From Anaerofustis stercorihominis DSM 17244 (GTDB taxonomy: Bacteria > Bacillota > Clostridia > Eubacteriales > Anaerofustaceae): DNA of 64,000 nt. The stretch is taken from NCBI RefSeq assembly GCF_000154825.1, contig NZ_DS560019.1, positions 806,001 through 870,000 of the forward strand, written 5' to 3'. This document shows positions 5,411-61,455 of the stretch, piece by piece. The first letter of the stretch is position 1; each line of letters begins with the position of its first letter. The notes beneath the pieces are model-generated. The model was not told where the DNA came from, ran no database searches, and saw nothing but the letters and a program-made list of their open reading frames with translations. The translations under genes were made by a program, and so were the position numbers.

Positions 5411-5423
5411 AAAAATACTTTAT

Positions 5424-5540
5424 GTATCCTCTCTCATCCGGACTTTACCGTCGGTAAAGGAATTTCACCTTTTCAGCTTGCGCTCGCAGACTTTAACTGC
5501 CGGTAGGGAATTGCACCCAACCCTGAAGATTGTTCTCCTT
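5424..5540 (-). ncRNA. FMN riboswitch (RFN element)
   Basis: Read on the minus strand, the leader contains the conserved RFN blocks: AGGGTTGGGTGCAATTCCC, ACCGGCAGT, AGTCTGCGAGCGC, GGTGAAATTCC and AGTCCGGATGAGAGA. It lies directly upstream of ribU with a terminator hairpin between them, giving riboflavin uptake control by FMN. Confidence 0.95.
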
Positions 5541-15789: not shown

Positions 15790-16096
15790 AATATGAACTT
15801 AATACCTTTGAAACACAAAGAAGAGGAATAGTAAGTTTTCTAAGAAGTTACAGAGAGCTGTTGGCTGGTGTGAAACAGTGCTTAATGAATTCCGAACTCG
15901 CCTCAGAGTGATTTGCTGAAATCATATAGAGAGTAAGTTAAATCGGGTGTCACCCGTTACAGTGACAGGATATCGGCACACTGCCCGTATCTTTAATGAG
16001 TGTATTCTTATTTATAAGGATAAATTAGAGTGGTACCGCGGAAATATTACCTTTCGTCTCTTATTTAAATATTTGAGTCGGAAGGTTTTTTATTTC
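15790..16096 (+). ncRNA. T-box riboswitch, leucine-specific
   Basis: The leader has the stem I landmarks AGAGAG (near 15852) and the specifier block CCGAACTCGCC, with CTC (Leu) at 15897-15899. The conserved T-box AGAGTGGTACCGCGG spans 16027-16041. The UGGU bulge pairs with a tRNA ending ACCA, as expected for tRNA-Leu with discriminator A. An intrinsic terminator follows. Uncharged tRNA-Leu should favour the antiterminator and expression of leuACDB. Confidence 0.95.
16049..16096 (+). terminator. T-box terminator hairpin
   Basis: ACCTTTCG (16049-16056) pairs with CGGAAGGT (16079-16086), followed by TTTTTTA. It competes with the T-box antiterminator. Confidence 0.9.
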
Positions 16097-20941: not shown

Positions 20942-22633
<1,692 letters not shown>

Positions 22634-51549: not shown

Positions 51550-51678
51550 ATGTAGGCGGATGGTATTCATTTTGAAACTATACCGTGGTAAATATTTTGT
51601 TTTTCATTCTAATTATTAGAATTAAAGCTTTTATCGAAGGAAAGAGACTTTATGGCATCACCGAAAGAGGGTGATAGA
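51550..51678 (+). promoter_or_regulatory. Structured leader of the pantothenate operon
   Basis: A hairpin with GGTAT (51562-51566) and ATACC (51580-51584) is followed by ATCACC (51657-51662) pairing with GGTGAT (51670-51675). The second hairpin buries part of the panG ribosome site (AGAGGGTGA). The pan RNA motif is known upstream of panB/C/D in Firmicutes and is built of bulged hairpins; I cannot confirm the match by eye. Confidence 0.4.
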
Positions 51679-54218: not shown

Positions 54219-54620
54219 ATGTTACTAAATATGTTAAAGGGAAAAATCCACAGAGCTACGATTACCGAAGCAAAGCTTGATTATGTGGGAAGCATTACAA
54301 TAGATACAGAACTTTTGGAAAAAGCGGGTATACTCGAATATGAAAAAGTTCAAATCGTAGATGTTAATAACGGAAACAGGTTTGAAACTTATACTATAGC
54401 GGGTGAGCGCGGAAGCGGTATGATTTGCTTAAACGGAGCTGCCGCAAGAGAAGTACAGGTGGGAGATAAAATAATTATCATGGCTTATGCTTCCATGACG
54501 CCCGAAGAAGTAAAAGATAATCCTCCCAAAGTATTATTCGTAGATGATGATAATAAAATACTTAGGATAACAAGATATGAAAAACATGGTCTTTTGACAG
54601 AGGATATGATAAATGAATAA
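54219..54620 (+). CDS. panD: Aspartate 1-decarboxylase proenzyme
   Basis: A 133-residue pyruvoyl enzyme making beta-alanine. The self-cleavage site is Gly24-Ser25 (DYVGSITID), the same numbering as in E. coli when the ATG at 54219 is used; AGGAGG 6-8 nt upstream supports that start. It overlaps coaBC by 8 nt. Confidence 0.97.
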
Positions 54621-55827
54621 AATATTAGACGGTAAAACCGTAGTGCTTGGAATAAGCGGAAGTATTGCCGCATATAAAATGGCAAATGTGACAAGCATGC
54701 TTATAAAGCTCGGTGCAGATGTTCATGTAATAATGACAAAAAATGCATTGAACTTTATAAATCCCATAACTTTTGAGACCCTTACGAACAATAAATGCTT
54801 GGTGGATACTTTTGACAGGAATTTTGAATTTCATGTTTCTCACGTATCTCTCGGACAAAAAGCCGATGTTATGCTGATAGCTCCCGCAAGTGCAAATATA
54901 ATTTCCAAAATGGCAAACGGGATAGCTGATGATATGCTGTCTACTACTGCTTTAGCTGCGACATGTAAAAAAATAGTCGCTCCGGCAATGAATACTCATA
55001 TGTATAATAATAGAATAACTCAGGACAATATAGAGAAATTAAAAAAATATGATTTTGAAGTGATTGATCCAGTTAAAGGAATACTTGCATGCAGAGATAT
55101 AGGCGATGGTAAACTTCCGGATGAAGAAACTTTGGTAAATCATATTTTAAGAGAAACTGCATGCTCTAAAGATTTAAAAGGTAAGAAAGTATTGGTTACC
55201 GCAGGTGCAACAATGGAAGCTATCGATCCTGTAAGATATATAACCAATCATTCTAGCGGGAAAATGGGCTATGCCATAGCTAAAATGGCAATGCTCAGAG
55301 GAGCTGATGTTACATTGATAAGCGGTAACAGTACTGAGGATATCCCTCCTTTTGTTAACTTCATAAAAGTAAAAAGCGCAATGGATATGTTTAAAGCGGT
55401 AAAGGAAAATTATAAAGAAATGGATTTTATAATAAAAGCCGCTGCGGTAGCAGATTATACGCCTGTAAATGTAAGTGAAGAAAAGATAAAGAAAAAAGAT
55501 GATGATATGTTTATCAAGCTCAAACGTACCGAAGATATATTAAAGTTTTTGGGAGAAAATAAACTTAAAAATCAAATTGTCTGTGGTTTTGCAATGGAAA
55601 CCAGTAATCTGATAGAAAATGCAAAAGAAAAATTGAAGCGGAAAAAAGCGGATATCATAGTTGCCAACAGCTTGAAAGAAGAAGGTTCGGGATTTAAAGG
55701 AGATACAAACAAAGTCACTTTCATTACAGAGGATGATATGAAGGCTCTTGATTTAATGCCTAAAGAAGAAGTAGCGGTAAAGTTGATTGATGAGCTTATG
55801 GATTTAAAGGATAAAAAAGAGGTTTAA
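54613..55827 (+). CDS. coaBC: Bifunctional phosphopantothenoylcysteine decarboxylase/phosphopantothenate--cysteine ligase
   Basis: A 404-residue fusion. The N-terminal CoaC flavoprotein has [12 protein letters not shown], the His in FHVSHVSLG and PAMNTHMY. The C-terminal CoaB synthetase has [26 protein letters not shown] and a KxKK stretch. It turns phosphopantothenate into phosphopantetheine. Its presence in the pan operon joins pantothenate and CoA synthesis in one transcript. Confidence 0.97.
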
Positions 55828-55842
55828 ACCTCTTTTTTTTGT
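55811..55842 (+). terminator. Intrinsic terminator of the pan-coaBC operon
   Basis: AAAGAGGTTTAAACCTCTTT palindrome followed by a T run, overlapping the coaBC stop. Confidence 0.85.
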
Positions 55843-55910
55843 GTTTTTTTTATATATTTAAATAATTATAGTTAATTTCAGTAAAATTTTTAAATTATTT
55901 GTCAAAAAAG

Positions 55911-56062
55911 GTGTACTTTTTGTAACTAATTGTCAAACAAAAAAATAAGACAAAATATCTCTTTTTTATTTAATCAATCATTAGGTATGTAACACTTTTG
56001 CATACTATTCCCCATATATAATTGCATTAGGTATTATACACCTTTCGTTACAAAAAGTACAC
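55911..56062. repeat. Perfect 16-bp inverted repeats bounding about 120 bp upstream of the large surface-protein gene
   Basis: GTGTACTTTTTGTAAC at 55911-55926 and its exact complement at 56047-56062. The enclosed segment is AT-rich with TATAAT-like words near 56020 and 56030. The repeats stop sharply at 16 bp. The layout resembles invertible promoter segments that switch surface genes, but it could also be a paired protein-binding site. Confidence 0.65.
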
Positions 56063-56202
56063 TTATTGTAAATTTAATATGATTAAACATCGACGATAAG
56101 AAAGGACATAAGTTCTTTATTTTCGTCTTTTAACGTAGTTAGGTAAGATGCATATCTATTTCTAAAATAATACTTATAAAAATAATAAAGGAGAAAAGAG
56201 AA
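56063..56202 (+). promoter_or_regulatory. Leader of the large surface-protein gene
   Basis: About 140 nt with no gene, ending in an AAAGGAGAAAAG ribosome site. I could not match it to a known riboswitch class (checked by eye for c-di-GMP types). Confidence 0.4.
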
Positions 56203-59200
56203 ATGGACGAATTTAAACCTAAGCGAAGTAAGATTTCAAGAAAAATAATAGGGATGATACTGACTCTTGTTTTAATGTTATGTTTATTCCCATCTTCAAA
56301 TATTTTTGCCGCTGACAATGCACAGGCAAGCGAAATTGAATATTTGACAAACCAATCCGGATTTGCATTTAATGTTAGAGGTATGCCCGGTAGTTTTAAA
56401 ACTACTTATTCGGATAGAGGGTATATTTCATATTTAAGGATAACGGACAGTGAAGTAAATAATGCAGCTGCAAGCAGCGGTACAGCAATAAACAGTTTGC
56501 CGAATGGCGTGGTTAAACGTAATATCAATGGCGTTACAGGTTTTGATTTGACACAAACGTTATCTTTTACTAATGAAAATAGATATGTTAAAATTCAGTA
56601 CACATTGACTAATAATACAGGTAAAGATAAATTTGTCGCATTGGGTTCTGGAGCTGATATACAAATCGTAAATAATGACAGCGCTCCGATTTACAGAACA
56701 GATACGGGTATACGTATGGCTGAGAGTACCGATGCTTCTTCAAGACAATTTAACTTTGTATGTGAAAAATCATATGGTGTTACAGATGTAGATACATTGT
56801 ATTACGGACCATATGGTCAGTATCCTGCAAATATGTTTTCCGGAATAAAGACAACAGGTTCTGTTCTTAATATAGACTCCGGTATGTCTTTTGGATGGAT
56901 AAACAGACTTATTAGGGACGGGGAAACTAAGACGTATTCTGTGCTTCTCGGTATAGGTAGTTCGGCTACACCTCCACAATTAATGCAGGATATTTCTGCG
57001 GTTTGTAACGGGGATAAAGTGGACGTTGAAGCACGTTTCAAAGATATAAATGAAAATGTAGAAGATGCGATATACTATGTATTCGATATGGATACGGAAA
57101 ATGAAACTCCTGCGGAAAAGTTAATCGAAGTTGATGCAACGGGCGAAGTCCAAACTCTTAAAGCGTCCATACCCAAACCTTCTTCATGGCAAGTCGGGGA
57201 AGTACATACTGTTTCCGTATGGGTTATGAATACTCCAGGTGCAATGTCTGATATAAAAACTGTTAGGGTTGTAGTTGAAGGTGATGATGAAGTCAGAGAA
57301 GCCGAAGAATACTATTTGAGCTTTAACGGCGGTCAAGGGGCTGTCGGTACCGCACCTTCAAGTATAAAGGCTTATGAACAGGATTATGTTACTCTTCCCA
57401 ATAATACATTTACAAAAGAAAATTGTACTTTCGGCGGCTGGAAGGATAGTGAAGGGAATATCTATCCTGCGGGAACAAAATTTAAAATGCCGAGCAGTGA
57501 TACGACTTTAACTGCCTATTGGGTAGAGGGAACAGAAAATGCTATGTATACCGTTGAGTATTATAAGCAAAATGTAAAGGATGACAACTATACATTGGCA
57601 GAAAGCAAATCCTTTGAGGGTACGGTAGGGGAAACCGTAACGGCTCCCGAAAAGACTTATACGGGATTTGATGAAAATACAACAACAGCTCTTCGTAAGG
57701 AAAGCGGAGAAGTGGCGAGCGGACTTCGTCTTAAACGTTATTATGACAGAAAAATGATGAACGTTACATTCAACGGTAACGGCGGAAATGCTTCTCAAGC
57801 TTCTGCTTCCGTACGCTACGGCGGTATGCTGGAAATGCCTACAGCTACCAGACAATATTATGCTTTCCAAGGCTGGTATGATTCATTGAATAATCAAGAA
57901 GCTAAGTTATACAACAACTTATCTCCTATAACTTCGGACTTGACTTTGTATGCATCTTGGGATGCGGCTTTAGACTTTACAACTCCAAAAGTGAGCGGGA
58001 CTTACGGGGCTGCAATAAGTAATGTGACTTTGGTTCCTTCAAATGCAGCTTCAAGCGACGCTCCGAACGTTAAGTTTGAAATAGTAAGCGGAAGTCTTCC
58101 CGAAGGACTTGAAATGTCCGAAACAGGTGTTATTTCAGGTACTCCTAAAATAGCGACAAACGGAGATATAAATATTCAAGTAAAATGTACTGACTTGGAC
58201 ACAAATTTAACAAAGACTAAACAAGTAACTATAAATATAGCTAAAAAAGAATTGACTGTTACGGGTATAGATATAACTACCGCTCCGACTAAAGTTTATG
58301 ACGGTACGAATACAATATCAAAAGCAAGTCTTGATGCCGTTTCCGTAACAGAAGTCAGCGGACTTTTAGCGGAAGATCAGATAAGCGCTTCAAGTGTAAA
58401 ATCTGCAAAATCAACTGGTCTTACAATAAAAGCCACAGCAGGTACATATGACAATAAAAATGCCGGAGAAAATAAAAATTATACGATCACTAAATTCTCT
58501 TTAAGCGGTGATAAAGCTGCAAATTATACGATAGCTCCTTATATAGCAGGAAATAATGGTGTGATTACAAAGAGAGATATAACCATAAAACCTACTCCCG
58601 ATTCTATGGACAGAAATGACGCTGTTCCTGCATTCGGAGTGAAAATAACAAACGGAAGTCTCGGAAAAGGCGATACGATTGCCGACTTGGGTACTCCTGT
58701 ATTTGAATGTAAAAATGACGCTGGTGTTTCACCTTCAACAGGCGGTGAAATAGGTGACTTTGTATTAAAAATCACATCAATAAATAATCAAAGTTCAAAT
58801 TATAATATAACTTTGGAAGAAGTAGCATTCAGAGTAAGAGATAAACATACCGTTACTACATCTAAAGCAGGTGACGGAGTGATTACGGCTACTAAAGCTT
58901 ATGATGAAGATTCTACCGCAATAATAACTTGGGAACCTAAAGATAATTACAGAGTAAAGAGAGTTATAGTTGATGGTGAAGTAAGAGATGATTTGCTTCA
59001 TGCAGGTCAAATAACTTTTGCGGGTATAAGAGAAGACCATACCGTATTTGTTGAATTTACCAGAGAAGAACTTCCTCCTGTAAATCAGTATTATTCCATC
59101 GATACCGTTAAAAAGGGCGGAGATGGTAACTGCAGCATAACAAGTGGATGTACGGTTAAAAAAGGTGACAACAAAACGATCAGCTGGAATGCTGGCGGTG

Positions 59201-61455
59201 AATATAAAGTAAGTAAAGTTACTATAGACGGTGTTGTCCAAAACAACCCTGATGAAAACGGCGGAAGCATTACATTTAATTCAATAAGTTCTAATCATGA
59301 CGTACAAGTCGTATTTGAAAAGAAAAGTGCTCCTGCACCAAAAGAAGATTTTTATACTATAACAACGTCTTATGAAGGTGAGGGTTCTATTGATCCAAGT
59401 AAGACTGTTAAAAAAGGTTCCGCATGCACGATCAGCTGGAAACCTGCAGGCGGATGGTATGTCGATAAAGTTATAATAGACGGTGTTGAAAAAGAAGGTT
59501 TAAGAAAAGGTGAATTTGAAAATATAACTGCGGATCATACTATAAAAGTAATTTTTGCTAAGGATACTCCTACCGGCGGAAACCCTGATCCTGATAATCC
59601 GGATGTAGATAATCCAGATATAGATACACCTGATAATCCGGATATTGACAACCCTGATGATAATCCTACTACTGATGTAACTCAAACGTACAGGGTAAAT
59701 ACACAGATAAAAAACGGTGTCGGTGATATTTCTCCTTCCGTAACTGTAAACAAAGGCGAAGATTATACTGTTTCTTGGCATATCGAAACGGGCTATGAAA
59801 TAGATAGTGTTGAAGTAAAAATGGGTAATGTATTAAAGCCTAATTTGGTAAACGGGAATAAGGTAATACTTACAAATATCACAGATGACTATGATATCAT
59901 CGTTACTTTAAAACCTGTTGATACTTCTGCCGATCCTGATAATAATAAAGAATCTTTTGATATTATTACAGGTATCAAAGGCGGTGAAGGTACTATAACA
60001 CCTTCTGCATTAGATGTTGAAAAGGGTACGAGTCATAAAGTAGAATGGTCCGTTGAAGCTGATTATACCGTTCAAAGTGTAATAGTTGACGGTGTAGCGA
60101 GAGATGAACTCAGAAACGAAAACAGTGAATATAATATCAACAGTGTTGAAGCGAGTCATTCGGTTTATGTATTCTTATCTAAAGAAAATAAGAATGACGG
60201 AGCAAACGATGGAGAAGTTGTAAATCCTGACGGACTTTTGACTGTAACAACGGAAATCGTTGGTAAAGGCAGTATCACTCCAAGTAAAATCGTTGAAAAA
60301 GGCGGTAACTATAAAGTTGAGTGGGCACCTGCAGACGGATATGTACTAAAAGAAGTTTACATTGATGGAAATAAGAGTAATCTACCTGTTAACTTCGTTG
60401 ACTTTAACAATATTTTAGTAAATCATAGCGTAAAAGTAGTATTTGTTAAAGATGATGAAGCACATCTTGATTATATCCCGGGAGAAAAATATCAAATTTC
60501 AACCGGAATAGTCGGTGGAAAAGGAAGTATATCTCCAAGTGCGACTTTACAAAAAGATGATGATTATAATGTAGAGTGGAATATTGATGAGGGGTATGTC
60601 GTAAAAAGCGTAATAGTAGACGGTGTATACAGAGAAGATTTAAAAAATGTACAGGGAAGTCAAGACTTTAATTCTATTAAAGCGAACCATTCGGTATATG
60701 TATATGTGGAAACTAAAGATAATTCTTCAAATAACAAACCGGCTAACAATTTAACCGTATCTACAGAGACTGTCGGTAAAGGCAGCATAACTCCTACAGC
60801 AGTTAAGAAAAAAGGCAATGATCATGTGGTTACATGGAAACCTGCAAGCGGTTATGTTGTTAAAGAAGTGTATGTTGATGGTTTAAAAGTTAATCTTTCA
60901 GAGGATAAAATAGAATTCAAAGATTTGGCATCAAATCATCATGTAAAAGTAATATTCGTTAAAGAATCGGAAAAAGATGAAATATATCAGCCTTCCGAAA
61001 ATGACATAAAGGTTGAAACATCTATAATCGGCGGTAAAGGTACTATTACCGGAACTGCCACTCTTAAAAAGGGTGATGATCACACGGTTAAATGGACTGT
61101 TGAAAAAGGATATCAAGTAAAGACCATAATAGTTGACGGAAAAGAAAGAAAAGACTTGTTAAACAGTAATTCAATAACATTTAAAGATTTATCCAAAAAT
61201 CATAAAGTTCAAGTAGTGTTGATGAGTGATGAAGAAGCTGCCGCTCTGGAAAAAGAAAACAATAAAAATAATAGTGGTAAAAAAGATAATTCTTCTTCAA
61301 AAGGAACATCTAAAGATAGAAAGAATGAAAATAAAAATAATATAGATACCCCGGATACGTCCGATAATTCAAATGCAGTGATATATGGCTTGATAGCCTT
61401 GATTGCTGTTGCAGGATTAGGCGGAACTATCTTTAAAATAAAAAGGGTAAATTAA
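56203..61455 (+). CDS. Large repeat-containing cell-surface protein
   Basis: A 1750-residue protein. A signal peptide (about 13-38, ending NIFAAD) is followed by a beta-rich N-terminal domain (about 45-370), two InlB-B-like repeats (SFNGGQGAVG-type and VTFNGNGG-type, about 370-590), a putative Ig and a YDG-type domain (APTKVYDGTNT, about 695-840), and nine copies of an about 75-residue repeat (about 875-1675). The repeat pattern is G-x-G-x-I-x-P-S, V-x-K-G, W, GY-x-V-x-x-V-x-VDG, N/D-H-x-V-x-V. An Asp/Pro/Asn linker splits copies three and four. The C-terminus (TPDTSD, hydrophobic helix, KIKRVN) resembles a sortase signal but lacks canonical LPXTG. Role probably adhesion or wall architecture. 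Confidence 0.88.
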   Translation: MDEFKPKRSKISRKIIGMILTLVLMLCLFPSSNIFAADNAQASEIEYLTNQSGFAFNVRGMPGSFKTTYSDRGYISYLRITDSEVNNAAASSGTAINSLPNGVVKRNINGVTGFDLTQTLSFTNENRYVKIQYTLTNNTGKDKFVALGSGADIQIVNNDSAPIYRTDTGIRMAESTDASSRQFNFVCEKSYGVTDVDTLYYGPYGQYPANMFSGIKTTGSVLNIDSGMSFGWINRLIRDGETKTYSVLLGIGSSATPPQLMQDISAVCNGDKVDVEARFKDINENVEDAIYYVFDMDTENETPAEKLIEVDATGEVQTLKASIPKPSSWQVGEVHTVSVWVMNTPGAMSDIKTVRVVVEGDDEVREAEEYYLSFNGGQGAVGTAPSSIKAYEQDYVTLPNNTFTKENCTFGGWKDSEGNIYPAGTKFKMPSSDTTLTAYWVEGTENAMYTVEYYKQNVKDDNYTLAESKSFEGTVGETVTAPEKTYTGFDENTTTALRKESGEVASGLRLKRYYDRKMMNVTFNGNGGNASQASASVRYGGMLEMPTATRQYYAFQGWYDSLNNQEAKLYNNLSPITSDLTLYASWDAALDFTTPKVSGTYGAAISNVTLVPSNAASSDAPNVKFEIVSGSLPEGLEMSETGVISGTPKIATNGDINIQVKCTDLDTNLTKTKQVTINIAKKELTVTGIDITTAPTKVYDGTNTISKASLDAVSVTEVSGLLAEDQISASSVKSAKSTGLTIKATAGTYDNKNAGENKNYTITKFSLSGDKAANYTIAPYIAGNNGVITKRDITIKPTPDSMDRNDAVPAFGVKITNGSLGKGDTIADLGTPVFECKNDAGVSPSTGGEIGDFVLKITSINNQSSNYNITLEEVAFRVRDKHTVTTSKAGDGVITATKAYDEDSTAIITWEPKDNYRVKRVIVDGEVRDDLLHAGQITFAGIREDHTVFVEFTREELPPVNQYYSIDTVKKGGDGNCSITSGCTVKKGDNKTISWNAGGEYKVSKVTIDGVVQNNPDENGGSITFNSISSNHDVQVVFEKKSAPAPKEDFYTITTSYEGEGSIDPSKTVKKGSACTISWKPAGGWYVDKVIIDGVEKEGLRKGEFENITADHTIKVIFAKDTPTGGNPDPDNPDVDNPDIDTPDNPDIDNPDDNPTTDVTQTYRVNTQIKNGVGDISPSVTVNKGEDYTVSWHIETGYEIDSVEVKMGNVLKPNLVNGNKVILTNITDDYDIIVTLKPVDTSADPDNNKESFDIITGIKGGEGTITPSALDVEKGTSHKVEWSVEADYTVQSVIVDGVARDELRNENSEYNINSVEASHSVYVFLSKENKNDGANDGEVVNPDGLLTVTTEIVGKGSITPSKIVEKGGNYKVEWAPADGYVLKEVYIDGNKSNLPVNFVDFNNILVNHSVKVVFVKDDEAHLDYIPGEKYQISTGIVGGKGSISPSATLQKDDDYNVEWNIDEGYVVKSVIVDGVYREDLKNVQGSQDFNSIKANHSVYVYVETKDNSSNNKPANNLTVSTETVGKGSITPTAVKKKGNDHVVTWKPASGYVVKEVYVDGLKVNLSEDKIEFKDLASNHHVKVIFVKESEKDEIYQPSENDIKVETSIIGGKGTITGTATLKKGDDHTVKWTVEKGYQVKTIIVDGKERKDLLNSNSITFKDLSKNHKVQVVLMSDEEAAALEKENNKNNSGKKDNSSSKGTSKDRKNENKNNIDTPDTSDNSNAVIYGLIALIAVAGLGGTIFKIKRVN

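Follow-up and report, generated by a model that had tools for sequence, protein, structure and literature searches.

A predicted invertible promoter upstream of an Anaerofustis stercorihominis surface-protein gene and a genome-wide family of similar switches

In Bacteroides, a single serine invertase is already known to invert promoters across the genome: in Bacteroides fragilis, the serine recombinase Mpi performs multiple-promoter inversion at at least thirteen regions (PMC5903667). The Hin/hix flagellar switch of Salmonella uses two 26-bp sites (PMC3798978), and in C. difficile RecV switches cwpV and flg (PMC5903667, PMC5386303). Additionally, the hCom2 inverton group 139 comprises clostridial invertons with a common repeat motif (PMC11892184).

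The locus described here lies upstream of a surface-protein gene of Anaerofustis stercorihominis and shares features with each of these systems. As in the Mpi system, many dispersed and, in this case, predicted invertible promoters carry a common site and serve surface targets, probably through one small serine recombinase. The best NCBIfam family of this candidate invertase is the Mpi master invertase (NF009949 equivalog); however, its score of 69 bits falls far under the curated cut-off of 272 bits. The host is Gram-positive, and the targets are protein adhesins, whereas Mpi controls capsule operons. By analogy, Bacteroides Mpi is the functional parallel of the Anaerofustis regulon. The 26-bp imperfect palindromic sites, the serine recombinase and the predicted inversion of a promoter recall Hin/hix, but the segments measure about 120 bp versus about 1 kb, the invertase is encoded outside the segment, and one enzyme would serve many loci. 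RecV likewise inverts segments that precede surface genes, at several loci of a clostridial bacterium, but it is a tyrosine recombinase and its sites differ from those of Anaerofustis. Group 139 is also a clostridial inverton family sharing a repeat motif, but is linked to tyrosine recombinases close by (PMC11892184). A full-text search of the available literature collection for inverton or invertible promoter together with the genus Anaerofustis found no paper, and the text of two inversion surveys does not name the genus, although single switches may already stand in their supplementary tables. What appears to be new here is the same strategy in a gut commensal of a Gram-positive lineage, employed for BspA-like, MucBP, VWA and InlB-repeat surface proteins.

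Recombination sites and target gene

The window is the whole 64-kb stretch that was analysed, corresponding to positions 806001-870000 of contig C5 in the 2.28-Mb source genome (G000). A sequence-only reading of this DNA had pointed out perfect 16-bp inverted repeats about 120 bp apart upstream of a surface-protein gene, and its coordinates proved exact. The left arm, GTGTACTTTTTGTAAC, occupies 55911-55926 (+), and the right arm at 56047-56062 is its perfect reverse complement, with 120 bp separating the two. Since the window contains no other pair of perfect 16-bp inverted repeats with a loop of 21-200 nt, and 60 third-order Markov sequences contained none, the repeats do not reflect chance. 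Genome-wide, G000 has 8 exact copies of the 16-mer, and 10 occurrences (6+4) are found with at most one mismatch, compared with 0 for a reversed-pattern control. The arms thus stood, while the full sites, some 18 further switches and a fitting serine invertase had been overlooked. Specifically, two 26-bp imperfect palindromes lie at 55901-55926 and 56047-56072, each having one arm as its better part, and their consensus is about GTTACAAAAA-GTNNAC-TTTTTGTAAC. The putative left recombination site (55901..55926, plus strand) reads GTCAAAAAAG-GTGTAC-TTTTTGTAAC, with the central dinucleotide GT at 55913-55914, and the putative right site (56047..56072, minus strand) reads TTTACAATAA-GTGTAC-TTTTTGTAAC, with the central GT at 56060-56059 of the minus strand. 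The locus therefore displays the layout of an inverton, in which inverted repeats bound a short segment, here a 120-bp core at 55927..56046.

The target gene (56203..61455, plus strand) starts 141 bp beyond the right 16-mer and encodes a 1750-aa secreted surface protein with InlB/Listeria-Bacteroides repeats, YDG and He_PIG, whose C-terminus consists of TPDTSD, a hydrophobic stretch and a basic tail. Its 5' leader (56073..56202, plus strand) is kept in the sister species, as is a small hairpin within it (GACGA...TCGTC, about 56092-56127, plus strand). A leader riboswitch was considered and dropped, as the leader gave 0 Rfam matches and its folding energy was unremarkable. The upstream neighbour coaBC (flavoprotein/DFP; 54613..55827, plus strand) lies outside the switch, and between the two sits a perfect 13+13 palindrome with T/A runs (55813..55838), which looks like a terminator on both strands and may function as one. 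A phage origin of the region was also considered and dropped, as no phage record matched.

Orientation and predicted ON/OFF state

The same reading had proposed that the segment may be invertible and had suggested a comparison with sister genomes; the alignment of the window segment and its flanks with the homologous locus of the sister species (G002) supports the proposal. The flanks are collinear, while the core is opposite: flipping one copy gives an alignment with 98/122 identities and a score of 145, compared with 5 for the unflipped copy and 11 +/- 9 for shuffles. Among seven orthologous switches compared, two are in opposite orientation, namely the window switch and L062/L164, the latter call being based on a short stretch of common distal flank; the other five are equally oriented in both species, so a part of them may flip only seldom or no longer at all. 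Paralogs within the source genome give a similar picture, as the cores of L053 and L060 (ON) are inverted relative to those of L054 and L059 (OFF), with 103-110 of 120-121 identities in the inverted alignment and a downstream flank common to all four. Both orientations of the segment are thus seen between species and between paralogs. Together with the dinucleotide match and the helical spacing described below, these comparisons strongly support the view that the window repeats bound a real invertible-promoter switch, which presumably still flips.

A putative -10 box, TATAAT (56033..56038, minus strand), is positioned 8 nt inside the right site and points left, away from the surface gene, whereas the G002 ortholog carries TATACT directed at the surface gene. 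A TATAAT-like box is found exactly 8 nt inside one segment end in 14/20 deduplicated pairs (6 pairs for the runner-up offset), and the form TGnTATAnT is frequent among these boxes. No good -35 hexamer was found at the switches, where the recombination site itself occupies the -35 place. A -10 pattern made one base too long yielded background matches only and served in effect as a negative control. The -10 box probably marks a promoter within the segment. In the window it lies on the minus strand (56038-56033) and is probably the promoter that the sequence-only reading had looked for in vain. The direction of the box predicts that the surface gene is OFF here and ON in G002, which agrees with the OFF state suggested earlier. 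By the same rule, in our reading about 11 switches of the source genome would be OFF and 4-5 ON, and L056, L058 and L069 show no clear promoter end.

Genome-wide family of site pairs

Inverted site pairs were collected by a 16-mer search, a DNA search and a sequence model representing the promoter-bearing end. For G000 the resulting list, which may be incomplete, holds about 19 loci; G002 contributes ten pairs, and the third genome of the genus (G001) a single clear one. A strict pair pattern applied across 67 genomes of the order matched in G000 only, and this pattern was too strict, since the sister-species switches also escaped it. Most pairs are located upstream of genes for secreted/surface or wall-anchored proteins, including BspA-type LRR proteins, a MucBP protein, a VWA/GBS104-like protein and an SH3 lipoprotein; the exceptions are a bactofilin and a few small proteins without assigned function. 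Many of the targets end in a PxTSD/PQTGD-like motif followed by a hydrophobic stretch and a basic tail, as sortase substrates do.

Several loci show individual features. Three consecutive sites of alternating orientation occur at L056:3005-3300 (G000 C5, about 379.0-379.3 kb), where two distinct inversions and a deletion could occur. At L060:3010-5097 (G000 C5, about 1199.5-1201.6 kb), an ON-oriented switch precedes a BspA-like gene that is probably a pseudogene, since its coding sequence is interrupted by an in-frame stop after about 355 aa. In G002, an extra surface gene with its own switch stands between orthologous flanks (L168:3238-4836, contig C1), as if gene and switch had been gained or lost together like a cassette.

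Serine recombinases cut at a 2-bp overlap, and the overlap must match. The central dinucleotide is identical between partner sites in 31/31 pairs (9.2 expected), and after removal of paralogs and orthologs the match is still 20/20 (5.7 expected, p <= 5e-5). Except for the steps overlapping the centre, the other dinucleotide steps of the 31 pairs stay near the shuffled value, and the dinucleotides on either side of the centre agree at chance level in the 20 deduplicated pairs. Equality of the crossover dinucleotide in both sites of every pair follows the rule of serine recombinases, and a DNA-binding regulator offers no reason for it. Three central classes exist among the pairs: GT, TT and AT. 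Centre-to-centre spacings cluster at ~116, 126, 136, 146 and 159 bp, with a period of 10-10.5 bp (R about 0.8, deduplicated pairs), in keeping with steps of one helical turn. Specificity can be probed directly and cheaply through the dinucleotide classes and the constant place of the -10 box, and the 26-bp site should make the entire regulon and its predicted ON/OFF state legible in an assembled genome.

Candidate invertase and alternative explanations

The source genome has six resolvase-domain matches and four tyrosine-recombinase matches. A search for a small serine invertase, also suggested beforehand, led to a candidate that fits the sites: a 202-aa small serine recombinase encoded at G000 C1:724-1332, with intact catalytic residues and motifs (R8, S10, DRLGR, ER). 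Its gene adjoins yajC, tgt and era in all three genomes of the genus, its identity to the sister-species copies is 98% and 84%, and its closest relative of solved structure is Sin. Relatives at roughly 40-60% identity occur in 8/26 genera of the order, its own genus counted, and 7/9 of the loci inspected for these relatives carry, next to the invertase gene, an inverted pair whose A-tract/T-tract heart is similar. In two of these genomes (G010 and G017), a search with the consensus site matched only the pair adjoining the invertase. As no site pair was found at the locus of the core invertase itself, its link to the sites comes through these relatives. C1:724-1332 is the likely enzyme of the switches.

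A second small serine recombinase, 58% identical to the core invertase, is encoded on an ICE (C5:36533-37111), with an adjacent pair of similar sites placed between it and a 1076-aa surface ORF. Given that most of the relatives examined and the ICE recombinase have an adjacent site pair, the comparison suggests that the ancestral form was a local module of invertase, switch and adhesin, and that the sites were dispersed in Anaerofustis, if the events took place in this order. Enzyme relatives with a single adjacent pair would accordingly mark a path from local switch to master switch. The ICE-like element itself (L086:3310-3490; G000 C5, about 36.31-36.49 kb) combines a MobA-type relaxase, the serine invertase, the site pair and the large surface ORF, and may represent a self-contained phase-variation module.

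In the proposed mechanism, an Mpi-like small serine recombinase would bind both 26-bp palindromic sites, cut at the central 2 bp and rejoin the 120-bp segment reversed. With the -10 end distal to the gene, the promoter would drive transcription across the segment and through the leader to the 1750-aa gene (ON, as in G002), while in the window orientation it would face coaBC and its terminator (OFF). Since the same site recurs at about 19 loci in G000, a single trans-acting invertase (C1:724-1332) probably drives phase variation of the surface-protein regulon. We are highly confident that the window holds an invertible promoter flipped by an Mpi-like serine recombinase as part of a ~19-switch regulon, with switching in live cells, promoter activity and the acting enzyme predicted from sequence. 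A broader proposal is put forward more tentatively, as a possibility that we would not favour outright: the local module apparently gave rise, in a Gram-positive lineage, to a regulon under a master serine invertase, in which the recombination site takes the -35 place, helically phased spacing replaces an enhancer, and the GT/TT/AT classes partly insulate the loci.

Two alternatives accept a history of inversion. The switches may form a true inverton family served by a different enzyme, either the ICE recombinase, whose similarity to the core invertase and adjacent similar sites speak for it, or an unlinked recombinase. We consider this unlikely, as no counterpart of the ICE recombinase was found in the two sister genomes, though the same kind of switch exists there, and its neighbouring sites are unlike the GTTAC/GTAAC sites. 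It is quite unlikely that the window switch inverted in the past and is now locked OFF: its outer half-sites are degenerate and several orthologous switches are equally oriented in both species, but the inner halves and centres are perfect in the window, and the intact invertase is 98% identical between the species.

The remaining two alternatives dispense with site-specific inversion. A dimeric regulator could bind the repeats as operators, looping the DNA between two helically phased palindromes to control the surface regulon, and palindromic sites scattered upstream of functionally related genes at helical-step spacings would suit such a model. It is nevertheless very improbable and was rejected, because the cores are reversed between species and between paralogs, the central two bases match within every pair and nowhere else, and related site pairs adjoin invertase genes in relatives. 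A dispersed family with inverted ends might recall the terminal repeats of a MITE (miniature transposon) family; this is barely credible and was likewise rejected, as the cores are mostly unrelated across loci, yet the sites and their spacing are conserved, and the orthologous locus is in place with its core flipped. An invertible promoter flipped by a serine recombinase is the reading that we retain.

Two further observations concern the rest of the window. A 563-aa large serine recombinase, which probably belongs to a mobile element, has its resolvase domain at about 22115-22555 (minus strand). Rfam matches above the gathering score comprise a T-box leader (15809-16064), an FMN riboswitch (5422-5534) and a pan motif (51557-51654).
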